Shown: positions 8,501 through 31,754 of the stretch, in pieces
How positions within the stretch are numbered: position 1 is the first letter of the stretch
Layout of the letters: every line of letters starts with the position of its first letter
Origin: Candidatus Eremiobacteraceae bacterium
Lineage (GTDB): Bacteria > Vulcanimicrobiota > Vulcanimicrobiia > Eremiobacterales > Eremiobacteraceae
Length of the DNA: 55,310 nucleotides
NCBI GenBank assembly: GCA_035710745.1
Contig: DASTCX010000035.1
Span: 94,891 to 150,200, forward strand
Direction of reading: 5' to 3'
Program-made: the position numbers and the translations under genes
Notes under the pieces: generated by a model
What the model saw: only the letters and a program-made list of their open reading frames with translations
Told to the model about the DNA's origin: nothing
Database searches by the model: none

Positions 8501-9544
8501 CTAGCTCGCTTGATCTAGCGTTTCGAGCGCCTTCACGGCATCGCCGAACGACGCCACGGGAATGATCCGGATCCCCGGCGTTCCTTTTATATCCGTGTAG
8601 TTTTGGAGCGGCACGAGAAAGACGGTCGCACCGGCGTGCTTCGCCGCCTGCAGTTTTTCTTTCGTGCCTTCGATCGGGTCGACGGTGCCGTTCAGTTCGA
8701 GCACGCCCGTGCCGGCGACCATGCGCGCAGGTCCGAGATCCTTGCCGGTCAGCGTCCGATAGATCTGCAGCGCGAACATCAGCCCGGCCGATGAGCCGTT
8801 GATATCGTGCACGTCGTACTTCACCGGAATAGGAACGCTGTACGCGCCGGGGTCGAAGCTGACGATCATGCCGAAACGGGGACGTCCTTGGATCGTCGCC
8901 GTCTTGCACGTCACCGTCTCGTGCGACCCGCCGCGGACGAGGCTGAATCGATACGCGCTGCCCGTCGGCTTCGATCGGGTCGCGTCCGTCACGGCGCCGA
9001 TCGTCGCGACGAGTTTCCCATCGACGGCCACGATACGATCGCGCAGGCGTAGGCACGAGGCTGCGGGGGTTTTCGGCAAGATGCGCTCCACGACGACCGC
9101 CGCATGCGAGGGCACGTGGAGTCCCGCGGCTCGTTCAGCGACGACTTCCGCCGTCTCTTGGCTCTGCTTCATGTCGTCGACGAGCGCCGAGTCGAGCTGC
9201 TGGTCGGTCATCGACGGCGGTACGAGGTCCTCGCGTTTGACGATCTCGAAACCCGGCAGGATCTTCGCGGCCGCGTAGTATGCCGGCCGGCCAGGCAGCA
9301 CGTTGACGTCGGTGAGGAACAGCGAACCTGGCGGCGGCGAGTGCCCGGCGATCGCGATGACGCCGTTGAGATCGACGGCCGCGCCCGGACCGAATATATA
9401 GTAGGGCAAGCTGACGTAGAAGAGCAGGTACGTCACGACGAACGTGATCGCGCCGGTCGCGAGCGCGACGCCGAGCAGCGCGAGCCGCCGGCGACGGCGG
9501 AACTCGCGCATGAACTCTTGGTCTTCGGTCGGGATCTCGCTCAA
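8501..9544 (-). CDS. PDZ and Lon-protease domain membrane protein (YlbL type)
   Basis: The protein has one N-terminal membrane segment (about residues 22-48), a PDZ domain in the middle (about 120-215) and a C-terminal Lon-like serine protease domain. The catalytic Ser is in DINGSSAGLMFAL and the Lys in VDPIEGTKEKLQAA, the usual Ser-Lys dyad. YlbL-family proteases are membrane-bound with the protease domain outside the membrane. The start appears to be TTG at 9544, overlapping the stop of the upstream coiled-coil gene (TTGA). The neighbourhood coaD - ylbL is conserved in Firmicutes and related groups. Confidence 0.92.
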   Translation of the reverse strand: MSEIPTEDQEFMREFRRRRRLALLGVALATGAITFVVTYLLFYVSLPYYIFGPGAAVDLNGVIAIAGHSPPPGSLFLTDVNVLPGRPAYYAAAKILPGFEIVKREDLVPPSMTDQQLDSALVDDMKQSQETAEVVAERAAGLHVPSHAAVVVERILPKTPAASCLRLRDRIVAVDGKLVATIGAVTDATRSKPTGSAYRFSLVRGGSHETVTCKTATIQGRPRFGMIVSFDPGAYSVPIPVKYDVHDINGSSAGLMFALQIYRTLTGKDLGPARMVAGTGVLELNGTVDPIEGTKEKLQAAKHAGATVFLVPLQNYTDIKGTPGIRIIPVASFGDAVKALETLDQAS

Positions 9545-10017
9545 CGAGTCGCTGCTCCGTTCCCCGATGCGCCGTTCAAGGTCGAGGCGAGCGTCTGCCG
9601 GCCTTTTTGAACGGTGGCGAGAGCACCGCCGAGCGTCGTATCGAGCTGGGCGAGGACACGGTCGGCGTACTCGTCGGCGCCGCGCCGGATCTCGGCGGCA
9701 CGCGCTTCCGCTTGCGAGATGACTTTGTCGGCGCGCGTCTGAGCGAGCCGCCCGAGTTCGTTCTCATCGAGCAGTTGGCTTTTCGTCGTCGACGCTTCCT
9801 CGACGATACGATCGGCCTGCTCTTTGGCCTGCGAGAGAAGACGGTCTTTCTCTTGCGTCACTTGTTTTGCGCGGCCGACTTCGTCGGGCAAGCTAGCGCG
9901 GAGCTTCTCGATGAGGTCGAGCGTGCGCTCGAGGCCGACGACCCGATAGCCGAAAGGCAGCCATAGCCCTTCCTTGACGGTCGTCTCGAGCTTGTCGATG
10001 ACGCGATAGATGCTCAT
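9541..10017 (-). CDS. Coiled-coil protein, DivIVA/ATPase-stalk-like
   Basis: The 158-residue protein is mostly charged helix (Glu, Lys, Arg, Gln and Ala from about residue 30 to 130) with predicted coiled-coil character, and no membrane segment. The N-terminal 25 residues (around LPFGYRVVG) resemble short DivIVA-like or vacuolar ATPase subunit H-like proteins found between coaD and ylbL-type genes, but I cannot name the family with certainty. It overlaps coaD and the protease gene by four bases on either side. A scaffold role is a guess. Confidence 0.75.
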   Translation of the reverse strand: MSIYRVIDKLETTVKEGLWLPFGYRVVGLERTLDLIEKLRASLPDEVGRAKQVTQEKDRLLSQAKEQADRIVEEASTTKSQLLDENELGRLAQTRADKVISQAEARAAEIRRGADEYADRVLAQLDTTLGGALATVQKGRQTLASTLNGASGNGAATR

Positions 10018-10566: not shown

Positions 10567-11172
10567 CTAGCTCCGCGGCGAACGCGGACGGCCGTCGTCG
10601 GCGGAACGTTCGCTCGCCTGCAGCTCGCGTTCTGTCCGGACGCCGGCGAAGGTGAGCGACGTGTCGCCGTACTTCGAGGTCTTGATGAGCTTCATCGAAG
10701 TCGGCAGCGCGAGCGTCTCCTTCGACCTGTGTTCGACGACCGCGATCCCATCGGGGGCCAGCAAGCCTCGCTGCATGAGCAGCGCGAGCTCGTCCGCCGC
10801 GCCGCGCTCGTACGGCGGATCGATGAGGATGACGTCGAACGTGCCGCGCAGCGTGCGAAGCGCGCGGGTCGCTTGCATCGGGAGGATGCGCCAGCGATCT
10901 TCGTCTTCGATGAGGTGCAGCGCGTTCCGGCGGATCGCAAAGGCCGCGGCGCCGTCGTTGTCGACGAAGACCACGCTCGCCGCGCCGCGCGAGATCGCCT
11001 CGAAGCCGAGCGCGCCCGAGCCGGCGAAAAGATCGAGCACGCGCGCGCCGTGGACGCGACGCCCGAGCACGGCGAACATCGCCTCGCGTACTTTCGCCGC
11101 AGTCGGACGCGTCTTGCGACCTTTAGGCGCGCTGACGTTCTGACGCGCTCGATCGCCGCCGGACAATCTCAT
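10567..11172 (-). CDS. rsmD: 16S rRNA (guanine966-N2)-methyltransferase RsmD
   Basis: RsmD methylates G966 of 16S rRNA with S-adenosylmethionine. The protein has the SAM-binding motif VLDLFAGSGALGFEA (45-59) and the catalytic DPPY (118-121) for N6/N2 amine methylation. The 201 residues match the family apart from a disordered Arg/Ser-rich tail. It lies between recG and coaD, as in many genomes. Confidence 0.95.
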   Translation of the reverse strand: MRLSGGDRARQNVSAPKGRKTRPTAAKVREAMFAVLGRRVHGARVLDLFAGSGALGFEAISRGAASVVFVDNDGAAAFAIRRNALHLIEDEDRWRILPMQATRALRTLRGTFDVILIDPPYERGAADELALLMQRGLLAPDGIAVVEHRSKETLALPTSMKLIKTSKYGDTSLTFAGVRTERELQASERSADDGRPRSPRS

Positions 11173-11213
11173 GGGTGCGGTACTTAAAGGGTTGCCGTCG
11201 GGCGCCCTACCGC

Positions 11214-13349
11214 CTACGACGTCGCCTTGATCATCGTGTCGCGATCGAGCGACGCGAGGTGAGCGGCGAGCCCTTTGTTCTCAGGCTTTCGCAGGTGCGG
11301 ATCGGCCGCGACGACGCCTTCGGCTGCTTTTTTCGCCTCGAGGAACACGGGGAAATCGCGTATGAGGTGAGCGAGCTTGAAGTCGTCGCCGCCATGTTGG
11401 CGCACGCCCCCGAGGTCGCCGCGCCCTCGGATCTTCAGATCTTCCTCGGCGACGACGAAGCCGTCGTTCGTCTGCTCGAGCACGTCGAGGCGGCGCGTCT
11501 CATCGGCACCGTCGACGGCGACGAGGATGCAGTACGACTTCGCCGTTCCCCGGCCGACGCGCCCGCGCAGCTGATGGAGCTGGGCGAGTCCGAAGACGTG
11601 CGCGTCGAGGACGACCATGACGCTCGCGTTCGGGATATCGACTCCCACCTCGACGACGGTCGTCGAGATGAGGACTTGGATGAAGCCGTCGCTGAAGAGG
11701 CGCATGACCTCGTCCTTCTCCTGCGACGACATGCGGCCGTGGACCAACGCGACTCGCAGACCGCGCAGCTCCTCCGCACGAAGCCGCTCGGCTTCTTCTT
11801 CCGCGGAATGGACCGCTCGTTCGGACTCTTCGATCGCCGGGCATACGACGAACGCTTGGCGTCCGGCCGCGACCTGCTCGCGGACGAACTCGAAGATCTT
11901 CGGCTTCGCGCTCGCCGGCCGGACGTATGTCTTCACCGGCTGTCGCCCGGGCGGCAACTCGTCGATGATCGAGACGTCGAGATCCGCGTACACGGATTGG
12001 GCGAGCGTTCGCGGGATCGGCGTCGCCGTCATGACGAGCGTATGCGGGGTGTGTCCGCGCGCCTTCGCGCGCAGCGCGGCGCGCTGCAAGACGCCGAACC
12101 GGTGTTGCTCGTCGATGACGACGAGCCCGAGCTTCGCGAACTCGACGTCGTCGGTGATCAGCGCGTGCGTGCCGACGACGACGTCGATCGCGCCGGCCTT
12201 CAACTCGTCGAGCACGAGATCGCGAGTCCGCCGGCGCAGCCCGCCGACGAGCAAGGCGCTGCGAATACCGGCTCGCGAGAGCTGCTCATCGAGCTTTTGG
12301 AATTGCTGCTGCGCGAGGATCTCAGTCGGCGCCATGAACGCCGTCTGATAGCCCGCTCGAGCCGCCAGCAGCATAGCTCCGGCAGCGACCGCTGTCTTTC
12401 CGGATCCCACGTCGCCCTGCAAGAGCCGGTTCATCGGCGCTCGAGCGGTCATATCGGCCCAGGTCTCCGCAAGCACCCGGCGCTGCGCGCCGGTCATGGA
12501 GAACGGAAGCAGCGCGACGAATTCGCTTTCGAGGACGGCGAGCGCTTTACGGTCGAGGAGGATGATCGGAGCGGGCTCGGCTTTGATGGCCGCTCGCCTC
12601 AGCGCGACGCTCACCGCGAGCAAGAAGAACTCTTCGAAGATCAGGCGGTGCCGCGCGCGCTCCGTTTCTTCCATATCCTTAGGTTCGTGGATGGCGCGAA
12701 GCGCCCAGCGTGCGTCGACGAATCGCCGGCCGGCGACGACCCTTGGCGGCAGCGGGTCGATGACGCTCGCCGGGTCGGCGAGCGTCGCGCGGACGCCTTT
12801 GCCGATGAGCCGGCGCAGCGTCCGGTTCGTCAGACCGGCGGTCAGCGGGTAGACCGGCTCGAGGTCGCCCTCGAACTTCTCGCCGTCCTGAACGACGCGA
12901 TGCTGGCTGACGCTCATGCGCGGACCGGCGAGCGTGCGCTCGACACGGCCGCGGAGGAAGAGGCGCATACCAGTCTTGAGCTGCGTCATGAGATACGGCC
13001 GTCCGAACCAAACGGCTTGAAGCAAGCCGCTTCCATCTTCGACGACCGCGGTCGACTTCGACCGCACCCGGCCGCGCAGGCGGACGTGCGAGATCCGCGT
13101 GATCACACCGAGCACGTTGACGTCGCCATCGGGTGCCTGCGCCAAGTCGGCGATCTTCACCGGGGCGCGCAGATCGTCGTAGCGCGTGGGATAGTGACGG
13201 ACGAGATCCCGGACGGTCGCGATGCCGAGCCTGTCGAGTTGCGCGACGAGCGCGGGCTTCAGCGGTCCGAGCGATTGGACGGGCGTCGACGCGGGCGAGA
13301 CCTCGGCCGGCTTGTCGTCCGCGGGTCGAGATCGAGGCGCAAGGCTCAC
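11214..13349 (-). CDS. recG: ATP-dependent DNA helicase RecG
   Basis: RecG regresses stalled replication forks and drives branch migration. An N-terminal wedge/OB region is followed by a superfamily 2 helicase core with Walker A GDVGSGKT, the DEQH box (VVIDEQHRFG), TATPIPRTL and the C-terminal QLRGRVGRG motif; the RecG-specific tail follows. The open frame extends to a GTG at 13403, but that codon is inside tRNA-Cys. The GTG at 13349 gives about 711 residues, near the family's 690, and lies just beyond the tRNA. The exact start is uncertain. Confidence 0.95.
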   Translation of the reverse strand: MSLAPRSRPADDKPAEVSPASTPVQSLGPLKPALVAQLDRLGIATVRDLVRHYPTRYDDLRAPVKIADLAQAPDGDVNVLGVITRISHVRLRGRVRSKSTAVVEDGSGLLQAVWFGRPYLMTQLKTGMRLFLRGRVERTLAGPRMSVSQHRVVQDGEKFEGDLEPVYPLTAGLTNRTLRRLIGKGVRATLADPASVIDPLPPRVVAGRRFVDARWALRAIHEPKDMEETERARHRLIFEEFFLLAVSVALRRAAIKAEPAPIILLDRKALAVLESEFVALLPFSMTGAQRRVLAETWADMTARAPMNRLLQGDVGSGKTAVAAGAMLLAARAGYQTAFMAPTEILAQQQFQKLDEQLSRAGIRSALLVGGLRRRTRDLVLDELKAGAIDVVVGTHALITDDVEFAKLGLVVIDEQHRFGVLQRAALRAKARGHTPHTLVMTATPIPRTLAQSVYADLDVSIIDELPPGRQPVKTYVRPASAKPKIFEFVREQVAAGRQAFVVCPAIEESERAVHSAEEEAERLRAEELRGLRVALVHGRMSSQEKDEVMRLFSDGFIQVLISTTVVEVGVDIPNASVMVVLDAHVFGLAQLHQLRGRVGRGTAKSYCILVAVDGADETRRLDVLEQTNDGFVVAEEDLKIRGRGDLGGVRQHGGDDFKLAHLIRDFPVFLEAKKAAEGVVAADPHLRKPENKGLAAHLASLDRDTMIKATS

Positions 13350-16803: not shown

Positions 16804-17349
16804 ATGGCGGCATCCGCCGATGCCGAACTCATATCTCGCCTCGCCGGCGACGACGAGTCCGCGCTCGACGAGGCGTACCACGCGCACGCACATCGCTGCA
16901 AAGCAGTTGCGATGCGCACGCTATCCGATGATGCCCTCGCTCAGGACGCGGTGCAAGAAGCGTTCCTCTCGCTTTGGCATCATCGAAGCGGCCTCGTCGT
17001 CCGAGCTGCCGGCATCGGCCCCTGGCTCGTCGTGGTGACCCGCAACGCCGCCCTCAACCTCGCGCGCACTGCGCGCCGTCGTTCGGCACGCGAGGCCGCG
17101 AACGCGCCGCTCGAATCGCCGCCCGATCCGACCGAACTCGCAGTCGCTAACGTCGAAGCCGCCGGATTGCGTCACGCGATCGAGCGGTTGCCCGACGAAC
17201 AGCGCCAAGTCATTCGGCTCGCTTATTTCGGCGGGGCGACGCTCGCCGAAGTCGCGGCCCGGACGGGCTCGCCGCTCGGCACGGTCAAGCGTCGCGCGCA
17301 GCTCGCGCTCGCGCGGCTGGCGCGAACGCTCGGAGGTGCAGCGCGATGA
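16804..17349 (+). CDS. ECF-type RNA polymerase sigma factor
   Basis: The 181-residue protein shows sigma region 2 (about 10-90, with DDALAQDAVQEAFLSLW) and region 4 (about 120-175, with LPDEQRQVIRLAYFGGATLAEVAARTGSPLGTVKRR). It starts nine bases after the phosphoesterase gene, and its stop overlaps the ATG of the anti-sigma gene by four bases. The pairing with an RskA-like protein suggests a SigK-type system in which membrane signalling frees the sigma factor. A candidate target promoter is at 18174-18199. Confidence 0.93.
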   Translation: MAASADAELISRLAGDDESALDEAYHAHAHRCKAVAMRTLSDDALAQDAVQEAFLSLWHHRSGLVVRAAGIGPWLVVVTRNAALNLARTARRRSAREAANAPLESPPDPTELAVANVEAAGLRHAIERLPDEQRQVIRLAYFGGATLAEVAARTGSPLGTVKRRAQLALARLARTLGGAAR

Positions 17350-17924
17350 TAGATCATCCGACAGGCTTGCTGCAATCGCTCGGCCTCGGCGAGCTCGATC
17401 GCGACGATGCGCGCGCGGTGATGGAGCATGCGGATACGTGCGCCGCGTGCGCCGCCGAGCTCGCCGATGCGATGCGAGGCGTCGCCGCGCTCGCCTATGC
17501 TGCCACTGCCGAGCAGCCGGCGCATCAAAGACCGCCACTCCGCACGAGAGACTCGCGTTGGCTCGTAGGCGGCCTCGCCGCCGCTGTCCTGGCGCTCGGC
17601 GTTTGGAACGTCCAACTCGAAACGGCCGCAGTGTCCGTGCCGGTCGACGCGCTCGTGAACAGCCATTTCGCGCACCATGCGTTGGCCGGCGCCGGCGGAC
17701 ACGCCAAACTCATCCAGGCGCTCGACGGGTCGTGGGTCTACATGGTAGCGACGGACCTGCGGCCGCTGCAGGCGTATGACGTGCTGGTCGATGGAACGAA
17801 GATCGGCTCGATACGAGCCGATCTCAGGGGCAATGCGACCGGCTACTGGCACCGGCCGGCGGGCAAGATCGCGAGTGCATCGCTCGCAGGTCAGGATAGT
17901 ACGCTACGATGGGACGGCCGCTGA
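17346..17924 (+). CDS. RskA-type membrane anti-sigma factor with zinc motif
   Basis: The protein has an N-terminal anti-sigma domain with the full zinc motif His28-x3-Cys32-x2-Cys35 (HADTCAAC), one membrane segment (about 75-93), and an extracytoplasmic RskA-like C-terminal domain. It should hold the adjacent ECF factor inactive until a signal outside the membrane releases it. It overlaps the sigma gene by four bases. At the 3' end it runs convergently into a small zinc-ribbon gene for 21 bases. Confidence 0.88.
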   Translation: MIDHPTGLLQSLGLGELDRDDARAVMEHADTCAACAAELADAMRGVAALAYAATAEQPAHQRPPLRTRDSRWLVGGLAAAVLALGVWNVQLETAAVSVPVDALVNSHFAHHALAGAGGHAKLIQALDGSWVYMVATDLRPLQAYDVLVDGTKIGSIRADLRGNATGYWHRPAGKIASASLAGQDSTLRWDGR

Positions 17925-18053
17925 CGCGGCAAAACTCTCTCGAAGCATCTCCCAGAACCTGCGGGTGCGCGCGCACGCCGAGCAGATGAGCCAGCCGTTG
18001 ATCTCATAGAGATCATCGGATTCGCACTCGCACGCGCGGCATCGTTTCGACAT
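17904..18053 (-). CDS. Zinc-ribbon microprotein (49 residues), unknown function
   Basis: Reading the minus strand from the ATG at 18053 gives 49 residues with two Cys pairs: Cys5-x2-Cys8 (CRACEC) and Cys24-x2-Cys27 (CSAC), spaced like a zinc ribbon. An AGGAG ribosome site lies 9 bases upstream. The stop lies inside the anti-sigma coding end on the other strand. The Cys spacing and ribosome site are strong evidence for a real gene. Function unknown; DNA, RNA or protein binding is possible. Confidence 0.7.
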   Translation of the reverse strand: MSKRCRACECESDDLYEINGWLICSACARTRRFWEMLRESFAASAAVPS

Positions 18054-18173
18054 CTATATACGCTCCTGTTGCGTTCACAGTTCCCAATCAGGTCGAGCAT
18101 CAAACACGATGCCGCCTTGCGGCCCGCCGGGCGAGCGAGCGCCGCATGAACCGGCAATGACCGTTTTCGCGAT

Positions 18174-18199
18174 GGAACCACGGGGAACGCTATGACGTC
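18174..18199 (+). promoter_or_regulatory. Candidate ECF sigma promoter for the DUF4397 lipoprotein gene
   Basis: GGAACC (18174-18179), a 16-base spacer, and CGTC (18196-18199) match the general ECF consensus. It lies 47 bases before the ATG at 18246. The ECF sigma gene at 16804 is the obvious candidate to use it, though the second ECF factor in this window is also possible. Confidence 0.5.
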
Positions 18200-18245: not shown

Positions 18246-19067
18246 TTGAAGAATCGATTCATCGCCGCGTGGCTCGCGGCTGCGGTAGCAACCGCGGCCG
18301 GGTGCAACGGGCTCGGAAACACGATCGCCGGCTCGCTCGGTGGCAGCGGTACCGCCCGATTGATCGTCGCAGCGCCGAAGACGACCCAGAGCGGCATCGC
18401 CTTGCAGGCCGACCACGGCACGATCAACTCCGGCCTCAGCGCGTCGACGCCTATCGGCACGTATGCGAAAGTGAATGCCGGTAACGTCACGTTCGACATC
18501 AATACCGGGTCAGGCACCTCGGACCTCGTGCCCGCGATCAACGTCAACATCACGGCATCGACGAACTACAGCGTCGTCCTCGAGGGTGAACCCGGCCTTT
18601 CCGATTACATGGCCGTCAGCTTCGCCGACACGAACGCGCTCAACAATCCGAACACCGTCCGGTTCAAGGTGAACAACGCGGCGCCGAACCTGGCGACACC
18701 TGTGGACGTCTACGTCTGGCCGGCGTCGCAGTCGATGCCGACGACGCCGACGGTTCCCGCGCTTCCGCTTAATCAGGATTCCGGATCCGAGCCGAACCCG
18801 CCAGGCAACGCGTACATCCCGACTCTCGGAAGCTCCAACACACTGCCGAGCGGCACGTACGATCTCGCAATCGTTCCTCAAGGCACCATCCCCAACGGTT
18901 CGAGCGACCTGTTCGACGGCGCCACCGGCCTCAACGTGAACACGTCGTATTCGTTCACCATCGAAGACAACAACTCGACGCAGAACAACATCGGCGTGCT
19001 CTTGTCGATCGACGAGCCGATCCAGACGCAGAACCAGCTGAGGATCACCAAGCACGCCGTTCGATGA
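18246..19067 (+). CDS. DUF4397-like lipoprotein
   Basis: The 273-residue protein has a signal sequence with a lipobox (A-A-G-C, Cys20), then a beta-rich region in two halves. Segments such as GTARLIVAAP, VDVYVWP and SGTYDLAIVPQGT resemble DUF4397 domains of secreted, carbohydrate- or matrix-associated proteins. It is likely anchored to a membrane outside the cytoplasm. An ECF-like promoter precedes it, and a strong hairpin terminator follows, so it is a single-gene unit. The function is unknown. Confidence 0.75.
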   Translation: MKNRFIAAWLAAAVATAAGCNGLGNTIAGSLGGSGTARLIVAAPKTTQSGIALQADHGTINSGLSASTPIGTYAKVNAGNVTFDINTGSGTSDLVPAINVNITASTNYSVVLEGEPGLSDYMAVSFADTNALNNPNTVRFKVNNAAPNLATPVDVYVWPASQSMPTTPTVPALPLNQDSGSEPNPPGNAYIPTLGSSNTLPSGTYDLAIVPQGTIPNGSSDLFDGATGLNVNTSYSFTIEDNNSTQNNIGVLLSIDEPIQTQNQLRITKHAVR

Positions 19068-19188: not shown

Positions 19189-19995
19189 CTACGCGTCGGT
19201 CGGCGTAGCCGTGCGGATCTTCTCGAGCGCGCGGCGCTGCAGCCGCGACACGTGCATCTGCGTGCACGAAAGGCGGCGCGCGATCTCCGACTGCGAGACG
19301 CCCTGGAAGAAGCGCAGATAGACGATGACCCGCTCGCGCTGCGACAGCGTCGCGCACGCGTCGCGTAGGAACGTTCGCTCCAGCAGCAGGTCGAGGCCGG
19401 CGTCGTTCGCGCCGACCGAGTCGCCGAGCGTCGTCGACGACCGCCCGTCGCGGCTGTCCATCTCGGCGTCGAGCGACGCGAGCGCGTATGCCCGGCTCGT
19501 CTCCTGTGCTTCGACGATGTCCTCGACGGATACGCCGAGCCGCGCCGCGAGATCGGCCGGAGTCACCGCTCTTCCCATCTCGATCGTCAGCTCTTCCACC
19601 GCGCGACCGACTGCGACGTTGAGATCTTTGAGGCGTCGCGGCACTCGCATCGCCCAGCTCTTGTCGCGGAAATGACGCTTGATCTCGCCGACGATCGTGG
19701 GGACGGCGAACGAACTGAACTCGACGCCGCGGCTCGGGTCGAAGCGGTCGATCGCCTTGATCAAACCGATTATGCCGACTTGGATGAGATCCTCGAGGCT
19801 CTCAGCGCGGCTCGCGAAACGCGAAGCGAGCTGGCGGACCATCGCGAGGTGCGCGAAGACGAGGTCGTCGCGGAGCGATTGCTCGCGGGTCTCCGCGAAG
19901 CGGGCGAACATCTCGCGACGCCGCGCGACGTCGATGACGCCGCTCGGCGGCGGCGTCGCGGGTCGTACTCCGAATGTCCGTTGAGAAACAGCCAC
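19189..19995 (-). CDS. Sigma-B/F/G-family RNA polymerase sigma factor
   Basis: The 268-residue factor has region 2 (AHLAMVRQLASRF, LEDLIQVGIIGLIKAIDRFDPSRG, FSSFAVPTIVGEIKRHFRD), region 3 and region 4 (LSQRERVIVYLRFFQGVSQSEIARRLSCTQMHVSRLQRRAL), typical of SigB/SigF/SigG. The frame is open to 20070, but a strong GGAGGTGA (20012-20005) lies 8 bases before the GTG at 19995, so I use that. A promoter of its own type at 20059-20083 indicates autoregulation. RsbV-like and RsbU/W-like genes follow nearby at 20819-24092. Confidence 0.93.
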   Translation of the reverse strand: MAVSQRTFGVRPATPPPSGVIDVARRREMFARFAETREQSLRDDLVFAHLAMVRQLASRFASRAESLEDLIQVGIIGLIKAIDRFDPSRGVEFSSFAVPTIVGEIKRHFRDKSWAMRVPRRLKDLNVAVGRAVEELTIEMGRAVTPADLAARLGVSVEDIVEAQETSRAYALASLDAEMDSRDGRSSTTLGDSVGANDAGLDLLLERTFLRDACATLSQRERVIVYLRFFQGVSQSEIARRLSCTQMHVSRLQRRALEKIRTATPTDA

Positions 19996-20058
19996 TGGGA
20001 ACGTCACCTCCCGTTGGTCCGCCGGTGCCGGACCTTCACGCCGGGTACCGCTTACCTG

Positions 20059-20083
20059 ATACCCTGCCACACCGGGCGGAAAC
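20059..20083 (-). promoter_or_regulatory. Sigma-B-type promoter of the sigma-B gene
   Basis: On the minus strand, GTTTCC, a 13-base spacer and GGGTAT match the classical sigma-B consensus (GTTTAA-N12-14-GGGTAT). It lies 63 bases before the GTG start. This indicates a positive feedback loop. Confidence 0.7.
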
Positions 20084-20164
20084 TAGCGATTCCGCAGAGG
20101 CGGACGCGAGCGGTCCGTCAAGCGAACCGCTCGCTCCATATGCGTTACGCACGGCCGCCGGCGA

Positions 20165-20428
20165 TTATGCGACTGCCCGTCCACCGCTGAGCGCGCGGAC
20201 GATCCACAGCAGCACGACGCCGCCGATGAACGCGACGAGAATGCTCCACAAGTTCAGACCCGTCGCGCCGATGTGCCCGAACATGTTGAAGAGCCAGCCG
20301 CCGATGATCGCGCCGACGACGCCGACGATGAGATCGCCGAGGACGCCGCCAGGGCCTTCGCCCGGCACGACAGCTTTGGCGAGAAAACCGGCCACGATGC
20401 CGACGATGATCCACGCGAGTATGTCCAC
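20165..20428 (-). CDS. GlsB/YeaQ/YmgE-family small membrane protein
   Basis: The 87-residue protein has three hydrophobic helices and the family's GxxxG-rich pattern (IVAGFLAKAVVPG, GDLIVGVVGAIIGGWLF). The family is also called transglycosylase-associated, and members are often induced by general stress. An AGGAGG ribosome site precedes the ATG. It is divergent from the small acidic gene at 20594; an inverted repeat at 20480-20516 lies between them. I did not find a clear sigma-B promoter on its strand. Confidence 0.9.
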   Translation of the reverse strand: MDILAWIIVGIVAGFLAKAVVPGEGPGGVLGDLIVGVVGAIIGGWLFNMFGHIGATGLNLWSILVAFIGGVVLLWIVRALSGGRAVA

Positions 20429-20479
20429 GGGTTACCTCCTAAAGCGGTCGACGGTTGATGAGAGTCGTCATTCACACTT

Positions 20480-20516
20480 CCCAAACGGGCGCGCGACTAT
20501 TCACGTGCCGTTTGGG
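20480..20516. promoter_or_regulatory. Inverted repeat between divergent genes
   Basis: CCCAAACGG (20480-20488) and CCGTTTGGG (20508-20516) are perfect arms 19 bases apart. The right arm supplies the -35 GTTTGG of the sigma-B promoter at 20510. It may be an operator for both divergent genes, or simply two facing -35-like elements. Confidence 0.4.
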
Positions 20517-20534
20517 CGACCCGGGCGCGGGTAC
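20510..20534 (+). promoter_or_regulatory. Sigma-B-type promoter of the small acidic gene
   Basis: GTTTGG (20510-20515), a 13-base spacer and GGGTAC (20529-20534). It lies 59 bases before the ATG at 20594. Confidence 0.6.
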
Positions 20535-20593
20535 GATTCGTGCGACGGCAACGCCGTCGAACCCGCCAAATGCATGACCGGAGGAATCGACCT

Positions 20594-20734
20594 ATGATAG
20601 AGGACCTCGAGAAGAACCGACCCGGCGAGGTCGACCCGGAGCAGGTCGACGACGATTCCGACGACGACGAGGCCGAAGTCGGCGAAGCAGACGATACGAC
20701 GTCGACCGACGCGGATGACGAGACGGCGCCCTGA
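20594..20734 (+). CDS. Small highly acidic protein (46 residues), unknown function
   Basis: ATG at 20594 with GGAGGA 8 bases upstream encodes 46 residues, of which more than a third are Asp or Glu (for example DDDSDDDEAE). No domain is recognised; it is probably disordered. The sigma-B-type promoter upstream and the strong terminator downstream mark it as a real single-gene unit and suggest stress induction. Confidence 0.7.
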   Translation: MIEDLEKNRPGEVDPEQVDDDSDDDEAEVGEADDTTSTDADDETAP

Positions 20735-20764
20735 ACACGACGGACCGACGCTGCTTGAAACGAA

Positions 20765-20789
20765 TCGGGGCCGGAAAAACCGGCCCCGA
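20765..20789 (+). terminator. Hairpin terminator between convergent genes
   Basis: TCGGGGCCGG-AAAAA-CCGGCCCCGA is a perfect 10-bp stem located between the acidic gene and the convergent STAS gene, and so probably serves both. Confidence 0.75.
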
Positions 20790-20818
20790 CTATAGATGAT
20801 TCCGCCGCTGCTAGCCGC

Positions 20819-21193
20819 TCATGCGCTGCCGGCGAGAAACTTCTCGCGCAAGCTCGCTTTCGCCGATGCAACGTCATCGTACATGCCGAACACCTTGACG
20901 AGACCGGTCACGTCGAAGATCCTGCGGATCTGCGGGTCCTTGCACACGATGGCGATCGAGCCGCCGTTGTCGCGAGCCGCTTTAAGCGCGGCGACGAGTG
21001 CACCAAGGCCCGTCGAATCGATATATGATACCTTCGCGAAATCGACCACGAGAAGGTTCTGTCCGTCCTTGATCGTCGAGACGAGCGCGCTCTTCACTTC
21101 CGGCGACGCGAACACGTCGATCTCGCCGACGAGTCTGACTTCGCTGATGCCGCTGTCGTCTTTTGAGGGTACCATCGTGACGCAGGTATCCAC
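20819..21193 (-). CDS. STAS-domain anti-anti-sigma factor (RsbV/SpoIIAA type)
   Basis: The 124-residue STAS protein contains VSYIDSTGLGALVAAL, where the Ser of DSTGLG is the expected phosphorylation site. In partner switching the unphosphorylated form binds the anti-sigma kinase and frees the sigma factor. The frame extends to 21271, but GTG 21193 follows AGAAAGG at good spacing. A sigma-B-type promoter at 21232-21257 suggests the gene belongs to the sigma-B regulon. It is divergent from the phosphatase/kinase gene. Confidence 0.9.
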   Translation of the reverse strand: MDTCVTMVPSKDDSGISEVRLVGEIDVFASPEVKSALVSTIKDGQNLLVVDFAKVSYIDSTGLGALVAALKAARDNGGSIAIVCKDPQIRRIFDVTGLVKVFGMYDDVASAKASLREKFLAGSA

Positions 21194-21231
21194 GCCGGAC
21201 CTTTCTCTGCAAGCGCCGGGATACATCTGAT

Positions 21232-21257
21232 GTACCCGCGGACCGCAACGGCTAAAC
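21232..21257 (-). promoter_or_regulatory. Sigma-B-type promoter of the RsbV-like gene
   Basis: On the minus strand, GTTTAG, a 14-base spacer and GGGTAC; the best match to consensus in the window. It would give a leader of roughly 30 bases before the GTG at 21193. Confidence 0.7.
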
Positions 21258-21297
21258 CGCAGGGCGGCCAAACGACGAACGTGAAAGCGTCATACCC

Positions 21298-23733
21298 GTG
21301 AATTGGACTTTTGCGACGATCCGTGACCTGCCGCCGCGGCGACGTTGGGCTGTTTTGACGGCCGTCGCGCTCGCCGGCATCGCCATGCTCGCGATCGATC
21401 GCTATATCCCGGCCGTCCAACTCCGGCCGACCATCTTCTTACTCGTCGTCGCAGCTACAGCTTTCGGCGGTCTCTGGTTCGGGATCGGCTACGGAGTCTT
21501 GGCGGCCACCTCGTTTACTATCGCCGAAGCGCTGAGCGACGGAAAGCCGCTCGACACCGCTCTTTTCATCAACGCGACCCTCGCGGCTGCATCGACGTCG
21601 TTCATCCCCGTCATCGTCTGGTATGTCACACAGCGGGCCCGTCAGATCGCCGCCCTCGAAGCCAAACTCCGCCAGGCCGAATTCGATCGCGCTCAACTCG
21701 TACAGACCGAAGCCGTGCAGACCGCGCTCATGCGCACGGAGGCCAACTACCGCGCCGTCGGAGAGTCCATACCGTTCGGGATCTGGCAGACCGATGCGGC
21801 GGGGAGACTGCAGTATGTCAGCCAGAGCTTCCGTCAGGTCACGGGGCTGACGCTCGAGCAGATCGCCGAAAACGGTTGGCTGGCGCGCGTGCCGCCCGAA
21901 GACGCGAAACACTTCCTCGAACGTTGGGCCGAGCGCGAAACCGCGGGCGATGTCTGGGAGGGCGAATACCGCCTTCATGGCGTCGATGGCAAATTCTACA
22001 CGATCCTATCGCGGGGCGTGCGTATCGAGGACGACAAGGGCGTCACAACCGGTTGGGCCGGCATGAGTCTCGACATCACCGACCGCAAGCGCGCGACCGA
22101 CGCGGTCGCTCTTCTAGAGGAAGTCGGACGTCAGCTGACGCTCTCGCTCGACCCGAACACGATCCTCGAGCGCGTCGCGAACGTCTGCGCCGCCCGCTTC
22201 GCCGACTGGGTCGCGATCGACATCGTCCAAGACGACGGGTCGCTGCGTAGCGCGGCCGTCAGACACACGGACCCGATGAAGCTCGCGTCCGTCGTCGAGC
22301 TGCGGGCGTACCCGCGTGATCCCGAACAATCAACCGGCCCGCAAGCGGTCGTGAAGACCGGCAAATCCGAGCTCTATGGCGACGTAACGGATGAAATGCT
22401 TGTACGCGGCGCGCGCGACGAGCGCCATCTCGAGCTCTTGCGAGCCTTAGGGATGCGCTCGGCGATGATCGTGCCGCTCATCGCGCGCGAGCGCGTCATC
22501 GGCACGCTCACGCTGGTCGACGCCGAGTCGGGGCGGCGCTTCACCGAAAAGGAGCTGAGCGTCGCTGAGGTCCTCGCGGTGCGAACCGCGCTTGCCTATC
22601 AGAACGCGCTGCATTACGCTCGAGAGTCGCGAGTCGCGGATACGCTTCAGCGAGCGTCGCTGCCGAGCGAGCTGCCGCAACTGCCCGGGCTGCGGATCAA
22701 CGCGACGTACCTGCCTGGAGCGACCGAATCGGAGATCGGCGGCGACTGGTACGACGCGTTCCTATTGCCGGACGGCAAGGTCGGATTCACCATCGGTGAC
22801 GTCGCTGGCAAGGGCCTGCGCGCCGCGGTCTCGATGGGAGTCGTGCGCCAAGCGCTCCGTTACGCCGCGCTCGACGGCCTCTCGCCGTCGGCGGCACTCC
22901 GCCGCGTCAACCGTCACCTATGTCTCGAAGGTACGGGAATGGTCACCGCCGTGACCGCCGTCCTCGACCTCGCGAATGATCGCCTGGTCTACGCGGGTGC
23001 CGGCCACCCGGCCGCATTGGTCTGTTCTCGGTCAAGCGACGTCGAGCGCATCTCGACGGCGGGGATGCCGCTCGGACTATTCTCGCAGGCGGCATACACC
23101 GAGGTCGAGCGTCAGCTCGAGACCGGTGATCTGCTCGTCCTGTACACGGACGGCCTCATCGAGAACGAGCGCGATCTCGCGCGCGGCGAGCGCGATCTTG
23201 ATGAAGCGATAAGCGCAGAATCGCGGTCCACATCGCCGAACCCGGCGCTCTCGATACTTCACCGCATGATCTCGGGTACGCCGAAAGACGACGTCGCGAT
23301 CCTCACGATCGGCCTCGCGCGTTGGCCGGTCGATCGTCTCGACATCGAAGCGCCGGCGGTGCCTGCGAGCGCGCGGATGCTCCGGCAATCGCTTCGGCGC
23401 CTCGCTGCGGGTGTCGGACTTGACGAACAGCGTTCGTTCGGGATGCTCGTCGCCGCGGGCGAAGCGATTTCGAACGTCATCGAGCATGCGTACGGCTTGC
23501 GTGAGGGGCTCATCCGTTTGACCGGCAAACGCGTCGACGATCAGCTCGTCGTCGAGATCAGCGACGATGGGAGTTGGCGCGCGCCGCGTTCGGAAGGCCG
23601 AGGCAGGGGACTCGCGCTCATGCGATCGATCGTCGACCAAACCGACATCACCGCCGACGGATCCGGTACGACGGTCACGCTCATCATGTCGCTCGCGCCG
23701 ACGCCGGCGCCGGCGTCGGAGAAGGTCGTATGA
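21298..23733 (+). CDS. Membrane sensor with PAS, GAF, SpoIIE-type phosphatase and RsbW-like kinase domains
   Basis: An 811-residue fusion begins at a GTG. Residues 17-110 hold membrane segments (DUF4118/MASE-like), 145-262 a PAS domain, 285-440 a GAF domain, and 450-675 a PP2C/SpoIIE phosphatase with GGDW (481-484), DVAGKG (501-506), TDGL (617-620) and DDVAI (664-668). Residues 690-800 are a GHKL ATPase with the N-box EAISNVIEHAYG (721-732), DDGSW and GRGLALM, as in RsbW/SpoIIAB. One protein thus contains both the enzyme that dephosphorylates a STAS protein and the kinase/anti-sigma activity that phosphorylates it. A STAS gene overlaps its stop. Confidence 0.93.
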   Translation: MNWTFATIRDLPPRRRWAVLTAVALAGIAMLAIDRYIPAVQLRPTIFLLVVAATAFGGLWFGIGYGVLAATSFTIAEALSDGKPLDTALFINATLAAASTSFIPVIVWYVTQRARQIAALEAKLRQAEFDRAQLVQTEAVQTALMRTEANYRAVGESIPFGIWQTDAAGRLQYVSQSFRQVTGLTLEQIAENGWLARVPPEDAKHFLERWAERETAGDVWEGEYRLHGVDGKFYTILSRGVRIEDDKGVTTGWAGMSLDITDRKRATDAVALLEEVGRQLTLSLDPNTILERVANVCAARFADWVAIDIVQDDGSLRSAAVRHTDPMKLASVVELRAYPRDPEQSTGPQAVVKTGKSELYGDVTDEMLVRGARDERHLELLRALGMRSAMIVPLIARERVIGTLTLVDAESGRRFTEKELSVAEVLAVRTALAYQNALHYARESRVADTLQRASLPSELPQLPGLRINATYLPGATESEIGGDWYDAFLLPDGKVGFTIGDVAGKGLRAAVSMGVVRQALRYAALDGLSPSAALRRVNRHLCLEGTGMVTAVTAVLDLANDRLVYAGAGHPAALVCSRSSDVERISTAGMPLGLFSQAAYTEVERQLETGDLLVLYTDGLIENERDLARGERDLDEAISAESRSTSPNPALSILHRMISGTPKDDVAILTIGLARWPVDRLDIEAPAVPASARMLRQSLRRLAAGVGLDEQRSFGMLVAAGEAISNVIEHAYGLREGLIRLTGKRVDDQLVVEISDDGSWRAPRSEGRGRGLALMRSIVDQTDITADGSGTTVTLIMSLAPTPAPASEKVV

Positions 23734-24092
23734 CCGATCAAGCGCGCTTCACGTCGCGCACGCAAGCCGGCGCCCTCATCTTGGACGTCGTCGGCGAACT
23801 CGATATCCTCAACGCCGGCGACCTTCGCTCGGCGATGTCCGAGGCGGCATCGCAAAACGGCGGGCCGTTCGTGCTCGCGCTCGACAAGCTCTCCTATTTC
23901 GACAGCCAGACGCTCGAGATTCTCGTCGAATTCTGGAAGCGTCTCAACCTCGCGCGCCGTACGATGGTCATCGTCGCGGGTCGTGCGACGCCTGCACGCC
24001 GCCTCCTCGACGTCAGCGCGATCTCGAGCGTCATCACGACGCTCGACACCGTCGACGAGGCGCTCGCCGAGGTGAGCTCGCCGAATTCCTGA
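23730..24092 (+). CDS. STAS-domain protein, second anti-anti-sigma factor
   Basis: The ATG overlaps the stop of the phosphatase/kinase gene (ATGA), so the two are translationally coupled. The 120-residue protein has the STAS fold with LSYFDSQTLEILVEF; the Ser in FDSQT sits where RsbV is phosphorylated, though the usual DSTG or DSSG is DSQT here. It is the likely direct substrate of its upstream neighbour, whereas the STAS protein at 20819 is separately controlled. Confidence 0.88.
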   Translation: MTDQARFTSRTQAGALILDVVGELDILNAGDLRSAMSEAASQNGGPFVLALDKLSYFDSQTLEILVEFWKRLNLARRTMVIVAGRATPARRLLDVSAISSVITTLDTVDEALAEVSSPNS

Positions 24093-27186: not shown

Positions 27187-27211
27187 GTTAATAATCCGCC
27201 GATGTGGGAAT
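27187..27211 (+). promoter_or_regulatory. Sigma-B-type promoter of the Thr/Ser-rich membrane protein gene
   Basis: GTTAAT (27187-27192), a 13-base spacer and GGGAAT (27206-27211), 37 bases before the ATG at 27249. Confidence 0.55.
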
Positions 27212-27248: not shown

Positions 27249-27512
27249 ATGCCCTACGTAGTCGCTTCCGACACGTACACGGCGCCGCCGGATACGTCAA
27301 GCTCTTCCACGACGACGCAGCAGAACCAACCCGCACCGGCAACGGTTCCCACCACGAGCACGAGCACGTCGACGACGACCACGACGACGAGCGTCAACCT
27401 GAGCCCGACTACTTGGACGGTGATCGTCGTCGCCGCGATCCTCGTGATCGCGCTCATCGTGATGGCTTCGCGCAGCTCGAACGACGGCAGCTCGACGACG
27501 ATCGTGCGTTGA
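27249..27512 (+). CDS. Thr/Ser-rich single-pass membrane protein
   Basis: AGGAGGT precedes the ATG by 6 bases. The 87 residues comprise a low-complexity stretch of Thr, Ser and Pro (about 10-52), one membrane helix (about 56-75, VIVVAAILVIALIVM) and a short polar tail. The composition suggests an extracytoplasmic flexible stalk. A sigma-B-type promoter points to stress induction. No family recognised. Confidence 0.75.
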   Translation: MPYVVASDTYTAPPDTSSSSTTTQQNQPAPATVPTTSTSTSTTTTTTSVNLSPTTWTVIVVAAILVIALIVMASRSSNDGSSTTIVR

Positions 27513-31518: not shown

Positions 31519-31674
31519 CTAAACCGCGCGCCTCCCGGTCAGCAGATTGTAGATGACGCCGATGACGACGAGCACGATGAGGATGTTGATCAGCGAGCCG
31601 CCGATGTGCGCGACCAAACCGATCAGCCAGAAGACGAACAGGATGACGAGAATCGTCCAGATCACGTTTGCCAT
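31519..31674 (-). CDS. Lmo0937/DUF5670-family small membrane protein
   Basis: ATG 31674, 8 bases after GGAGGG, gives 51 residues with two hydrophobic helices (ILVILFVFWLIGLVAHIG and INILIVLVVIGVIYNLL) and an Arg-Arg tail. This is the lmo0937 family, common among stress-induced small membrane proteins. A sigma-B-type promoter precedes it. The frame continues upstream, but the ribosome site and family length favour this start. Confidence 0.85.
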   Translation of the reverse strand: MANVIWTILVILFVFWLIGLVAHIGGSLINILIVLVVIGVIYNLLTGRRAV

Positions 31675-31728: not shown

Positions 31729-31754
31729 ATGCCCGAATGCGAGGCATTGCAAAC
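31729..31754 (-). promoter_or_regulatory. Sigma-B-type promoter of the Lmo0937-family gene
   Basis: On the minus strand, GTTTGC, a 14-base spacer and GGGCAT, 54 bases before the ATG. It lies immediately beyond the end of the TonB-receptor gene. Confidence 0.55.

Follow-up and report, generated by a model that had tools for sequence, protein, structure and literature searches.

We analysed a stretch of 55,310 nucleotides (hereafter the window; contig C35, DASTCX010000035.1, positions 94,891 to 150,200) from the genome of a Candidatus Eremiobacteraceae bacterium (GCA_035710745.1; 2.97 Mb in 41 contigs), in which sigB2, encoding a SigB-family sigma factor, lies near genes for an anti-anti-sigma factor, a fused phosphatase-kinase and a second STAS protein. 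Predicted SigB-type promoters precede sigB2, rsbV2 and several small genes. We read the window, with a probability of about 0.82, as an auxiliary, self-amplifying SigB partner-switching module, whose promoter and regulon would be shared throughout the class and older than the SigB2 copy. The basis of all readings is sequence comparison, from which genes, domains, motif, position, conservation and sigma factor residues were taken directly, and promoters and regulon are predicted throughout. Promoter footprints were compared with one congener (G001), class-wide comparisons covered 101 class genomes, and genome-wide motif work consisted of pattern searches and fetched stretches.

Genes and predicted promoters in the window

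The regulatory genes are:

19189..19995, minus strand: sigB2, SigB-family sigma factor, 268 amino acids; GTG start at 19995, ribosome-binding site GGGAGGTGA
20819..21175, minus strand: RsbV2, RsbV-type anti-anti-sigma factor (PF01740 1.1e-21; TIGR00377 6.8e-23)
21298..23733, plus strand: fused sensor-phosphatase-kinase (RsbU-RsbW fusion), from domain matches
23730..24092, plus strand: second STAS protein, STAS2 (PF01740 8.1e-14)

The candidate promoters and the small genes behind them are:

20059..20083, minus strand: SigB-type promoter of sigB2, GTTTCC-N13-GGGTAT; boxes identical in the congener
21232..21257, minus strand: SigB-type promoter of rsbV2, GTTTAG-N14-GGGTAC; from sequence and congener
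20510..20534, plus strand: SigB-type promoter of the acidic protein, GTTTGG-N13-GGGTAC; from sequence and congener
20594..20734, plus strand: 46-amino-acid acidic protein, conserved in the congener
31729..31754, minus strand: SigB-type promoter of the Lmo0937-type gene, GTTTGC-N14-GGGCAT; boxes 10/10 and spacer 8/16 against the congener
31519..31674, minus strand: Lmo0937-family small membrane protein, 51 amino acids (NF033488, 39.9 bits, cut-off 30)
18080..18105, minus strand: SigB-type promoter of the zinc-ribbon gene, GTTTGA-N14-GGGAAC; boxes 10/10 and spacer 8/16 against the congener
17904..18053, minus strand: 49-amino-acid zinc-ribbon-like protein, a new predicted target; 48/49 identical in the congener
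27187..27211, plus strand: weak SigB-type site of the Thr/Ser-rich protein, GTTAAT-N13-GGGAAT
27249..27512, plus strand: Thr/Ser-rich membrane protein, 87 amino acids

SigB2 is SigB-like and lies outside the curated SigB equivalog: it scores 270.7 bits (9.8e-81) against the SigB/SigF/SigG family TIGR02980 (SigBFG; curated cut-off 234.35), and 209 bits against the equivalog TIGR02941, where the cut-off is 315. Its best solved relative is SigB of Staphylococcus aureus (8x6g_H). RsbV2, for which a GTG at 21196 is a possible alternative start, keeps the phosphorylatable serine of partner-switch RsbV proteins in YIDSTGLG. The fusion protein runs from a hydrophobic N-terminus through PAS and GAF domains to an RsbU-type SpoIIE phosphatase domain (PF07228 5.5e-42) and a HATPase_c_2 domain with an intact N-box (EAISN), and its nearest solved relative is Rv1364c of Mycobacterium tuberculosis (3ke6_A, 2.9e-34). 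The start of STAS2, which retains its serine in YFDSQTLEIL, overlaps the stop codon of the fusion gene (ATGA).

The original prediction, made from the letters of the window, had named five of these promoters, and all five read as it described. Apart from GTTA at the Thr/Ser site, they keep the GTTT and GGGNA of the Bacillus sigma-B consensus (GTTTWW-N12-17-GGGWAW), as had been claimed, and relax it at -35 positions 5-6 and -10 position 4. The distances to the gene starts are likewise plausible, provided that sigB2 is started at GTG 19995 and not at 20070, which would fall inside its own promoter. Four of the five are strongly supported; the one before the Thr/Ser-rich gene is weakly supported. 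The sixth site, at 18080-18105, had been missed, and the gene it precedes is overlooked by a simple gene finder.

Within the window GTTT-N15/16-GGGNAY matches seven times, five times upstream of called genes and once more at 18080-18105. Upstream matches averaged 0.03 among 1,994 letter-permuted motifs and never exceeded 1. Across five sites the boxes are identical to those of the congener at 50/50 positions and the spacers at 49/79 (62%; Fisher p=4e-8); at the sigB2 promoter the spacer keeps 9/16 positions and has changed in length by 1 base pair (bp). Three matches to the strict GTTT..GGGTAY fall within 1.2 kb, against nine in 2.97 Mb, a clustering expected at about 2e-5 genome-wide.

The motif across the genome and the class

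Lack of motif enrichment upstream of genes genome-wide had been proposed as grounds for rejecting the original prediction. Enrichment was found instead: of the 35 genome hits, 13 precede a start on the same strand by 200 bp or less, where permuted motifs would give 2.2 (p=1e-7), and outside the window 7 of 28 hits are so placed versus 1.8 expected (p=0.0015). Counts with the looser -10 element (GGGNAY) are 35 versus 23 for the reversed pattern here and 27 versus 11 in the congener. Among conserved targets beyond the window are genes for a GsiB-like KGG-repeat protein, a RecQ helicase, a glycosidase-like protein, a DPP-IV-like beta-propeller protein and a PAS-GGDEF protein. The KGG-repeat protein scores 1.2e-9 with PF10685, despite which a six-frame search of this genome gave no match to that family.

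Class-wide, counted over distinct loci, the motif stands upstream of 16/38 lmo0937-type, 15/29 GlsB/YeaQ and 12/30 GsiB-like KGG genes, spanning about 11, 9 and 5 genera respectively as counted from locus tables, whereas permuted motifs at these loci gave means of 0.16, 0.11 and 0.06 and a maximum of 2. Over the 101 genomes GTTTN15-16GGGWAY occurs 1,674 times and its reverse 1,252 times (68 genomes up, 26 down; Wilcoxon p=2e-8). In Listeria lmo0937 depends on sigma-B (PMC2813243, PMC7690807), and gsiB of Bacillus subtilis has a SigB promoter (PMC9847131), so even without the motif these targets accord with what is known of SigB biology. Three known stress families, lmo0937, GlsB and KGG, thus carry the promoter, as in a SigB general stress regulon. 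The small stress regulon that had been proposed for the window therefore stands as to its stress genes and their promoters, but not as to its limits, since it extends through the genome and the class.

The window has its own GlsB/YeaQ gene:

20165..20428, minus strand: GlsB/YeaQ (Transgly_assoc) small membrane protein (PF04226 6.4e-14)

The full SigB motif is absent from its upstream region, where GGGAAG is conserved against the congener and the -35 is poor; glsB genes of other class members carry GTTT..GGGAAG.

Several observations weigh against our reading of these sites and of the module. The strict GTTT..GGGTAY pattern is not enriched genome-wide (9 matches versus 9 reversed), the footprints come from a single congener, and the homologues counted across the class are related, so that the lmo0937, GlsB and KGG counts are not independent; about half of these homologues are without an exact match. 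At the Thr/Ser site in particular the -10 becomes GGGCAC in the congener, and 2/7 other homologues of that protein family have the motif upstream. In the window a free-standing RsbW was not found, the HATPase domain of the fusion being intact. The parity of the strict pattern with its reverse, together with the many loose matches inside genes of this genome, would also fit the idea that the matches arose by chance in a genome rich in GC. That idea is opposed, and for the sites as a group refuted, by where the sites lie, by their footprints in the congener and by the recurrence of the motif across the class before three families of stress genes. It is left barely credible overall, although single sites could be chance.

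SigB-group factors and the reader of the promoters

In the open complex of S. aureus sigma-B the contacted bases are -35G, -34T, -33T, -32T, -15G, -14G, -13G and -11A (PMC11156646). They coincide with the letters that do not vary in GTTT..GGGNA, and the uncontacted base is the variable one here (T, C or A). The contact residues R97, R100, R110, Q236, M237 and R241 are identical in SigB2 and in the core factor of this genome, SigB1; S235 is T in SigB2, and the position of S. aureus F79 is R here, as in nearly all other rows of the comparison. Judged by these residues and by the consensus, SigB2 is predicted to have SigB-type promoter specificity.

The window had been taken to hold a sigma-B system. 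Its factor does belong to the SigB family, but it is a second copy restricted to the genus (G000 and G001, 94% identical, among the 101 class genomes), and the core operon lies elsewhere, on contig C4, in an iscS-DUF948-ytxH-rsbV-rsbW-sigB-alaS neighbourhood found class-wide. SigB1 and SigB2 are monophyletic (99/97) and about 55% identical. This genome encodes at least three SigB-group factors: SigB1, SigB2 and a copy on contig C39. In SigB trees the factor of the window groups with Eremiobacterota (Vulcanimicrobiota in the taxonomy). A record titled Rhodospirillales bacterium (L034) also contains a SigB that is clearly of Eremiobacterota type, and is probably a misnamed genome bin.

The SigB-type promoters could be real and yet be read mainly by SigB1, making sigB2 and rsbV2 cascade targets rather than self-targets, and to this we give almost even odds. 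The motif before lmo0937 is retained in six genomes of the family (G003, G004, G006, G007, G011, G012) where SigB1 was the only such factor found, and the base-reading residues of the two factors are alike except for S235T. Because these genomes keep this motif, the regulon appears older than SigB2, and core SigB1 is a likely reader, probably serving at least some of the class-wide sites. The core operon, however, is without such a promoter: no SigB-type promoter was found upstream of its rsbV-rsbW-sigB genes, and SigB2 is the only copy that sits with the promoters. The two readings may both be true, and sequence does not separate them. For the self-amplifying module, the feedback on sigB and rsbV in the original prediction is borne out as far as the promoters go, since SigB-type promoters precede both genes, and it is plausible that SigB2 reads its own promoter.

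In some class genomes GTTT..GGGAAA occurs about 1.2 kb upstream of sigB1. We rejected it as an autoregulatory promoter, as it lies inside a coding gene where annotated. Many class genomes have an lmo0937 gene on the same contig as core sigB, some 7-12 kb away (G019:C5, G029:C31, G033:C16, G047:C37, G051:C94, G054:C8, G063:C102, G085:C149, G087:C2, G088:C195, G093:C261). The third factor of this genome adjoins a SpoIIE phosphatase gene and a STAS gene (the locus on G000:C39 comprises L115:9744-10373 plus, 10680-11456 plus and 9128-9622 minus). Its region 3 is shortened, and its recognition helix, SQMYVSRLEK, differs. Other second SigB copies of the family (G002:C237, L226; G008:C50, L232; G009:C27, L235) each adjoin an RsbW-like protein in which the N-box Asn is replaced by Tyr, and the copy in G008 is near lmo0937 and glsB genes.

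A proposed partner switch in a diderm phylum

From these genes we infer the signal, the flow of phosphate, the pairing of sigma factor with site and the resulting expression. Stress would be sensed by the membrane-anchored PAS-GAF protein, whose SpoIIE domain would yield dephosphorylated RsbV2 and/or the coupled STAS protein. Dephosphorylated RsbV2 would then sequester the anti-sigma factor, which may be the HATPase domain of the fusion or RsbW1 of the core operon, and a SigB-type sigma factor would be freed as its anti-sigma factor is drawn off. RNA polymerase with the freed factor would read GTTT-N15/16-GGGNA before sigB2 and rsbV2, giving positive feedback, and the same holoenzyme would read the acidic, zinc-ribbon and Lmo0937-type genes in the window and the GsiB-like KGG-repeat gene and others elsewhere. 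Once stress ends, the HATPase domain would rephosphorylate RsbV2 and the STAS protein.

In both species of the genus RsbW1 (G000:C4, L114:10283-10714, minus strand) no longer has the Asn of the N-box or the Asp of G1, its motifs there being EACNCCIQNG and VERRGA, while most class genomes examined keep the canonical EACTN. RsbW1 of this genus is likely kinase-dead, to judge from these residues. RsbW homologues of Mycobacterium smegmatis divide anti-sigma and kinase duties (PMC7693655), and by analogy a similar split between RsbW1 and the fusion is possible. Tentatively, and with the odds somewhat against so full a picture, a SigB general stress response common to this class of a diderm phylum may have been extended in one genus by a second, autoregulated SigB, with the RsbV kinase role moved from free RsbW1 (kinase-dead, perhaps still an anti-sigma factor) to the membrane-bound phosphatase-kinase fusion, so that one protein would set both directions of the switch.

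It is also conceivable, if improbable, that the fusion and STAS2 form a separate partner switch, serving for example secretion or cyclic di-GMP, beside which sigB2 lies incidentally. Partner switches without sigma factors exist, which lends this idea some support, as do the six SpoIIE phosphatases of the genome and the motif before a PAS-GGDEF gene elsewhere. Against it, rsbV2 has a SigB-type promoter and sits between sigB2 and the divergent fusion gene, and in G002 a related fusion and STAS gene adjoin a sigB-rsbW pair.

The host, a soil bacterium of the phylum Eremiobacterota, is a diderm, as had been stated, because the genome encodes an Omp85 protein, the window a TonB receptor, and the cultivated relative Vulcanimicrobium alpinus, a Gram-negative, has an outer membrane and lipopolysaccharide (PMC9758169). 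Sigma-B has hitherto been treated as a Gram-positive stress system, and a review gives SigB orthologues as absent from Gram-negatives (PMC7522486); a non-exhaustive literature search found no description of a sigma factor system in Eremiobacterota. The predicted switch and promoter code, with its contacted bases and its GsiB-like, Lmo0937 and GlsB targets, would extend through the whole of a phylum that is of Gram-negative type and abundant in poor soils. It provides a group with hardly any cultured members with a stress regulon that can be tested, and it speaks for a SigB regulon that is old or was transferred. It is also a natural example of SigB factors that were duplicated and share their promoter specificity.

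With the Bacillus, Listeria and Staphylococcus SigB systems the window shares a SigB-family factor, an RsbV-type antagonist, a SpoIIE phosphatase, the consensus GTTTWW-N~14-GGGWAW, predicted SigB control of rsbV, and lmo0937- and GsiB-type targets. Unlike them, it belongs to a diderm phylum, sigB2 does not share an operon with rsbW, a single membrane protein combines phosphatase and kinase, the fourth base of the -10 is free (T, C or A) and one genome has several SigB-group factors. The mycobacterial SigF system, in which Rv1364c (3ke6) is a phosphatase-kinase regulator (PMC7693655), is similar in its fused sensor-phosphatase-kinase, its multiple RsbW homologues and its consensus, GGWWT-N16-17-GGGTAY. 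The window's fusion has the sensor, PP2C phosphatase and GHKL kinase of Rv1364c but not its single-chain antagonist, a role that falls here to RsbV2 and to a STAS gene that is separate but coupled; also unlike the mycobacterial system, key residues of the ATP site have been lost in this genus from the RsbW1 that occurs class-wide. The core rsbV1-rsbW1-sigB1 operon, between iscS and alaS, has the same sigma family and base-reading residues as SigB2, and differs from the window module in being class-wide, in having its own RsbW and in being without a SigB-type promoter upstream. Gram-negative RpoS/RpoE or PhyR-type responses resemble the window's system in their general stress role, with different sigma families and promoters.

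Two further features of the window concern gene ends and a rejected site. The acidic protein, which matched nothing in Pfam or NCBIfam, is encoded convergently with rsbV2, and between the two genes lies:

20765..20789, no strand assigned: perfect 10-bp inverted repeat, from sequence and fold

This repeat is perhaps a shared terminator of the two genes; it has no T run, and a terminator scan did not flag it. The site at 18163-18188 (plus strand) fits the pattern of the original prediction and was rejected as a SigB promoter. It is better read as a promoter of the extracytoplasmic function (ECF) type, because GGAACC-N16-CGTC at 18174-18199 (plus strand) is conserved in both species before the gene for a DUF4397 lipoprotein (18246-19067), which follows closely on an ECF sigma/anti-sigma pair (16804-17924).

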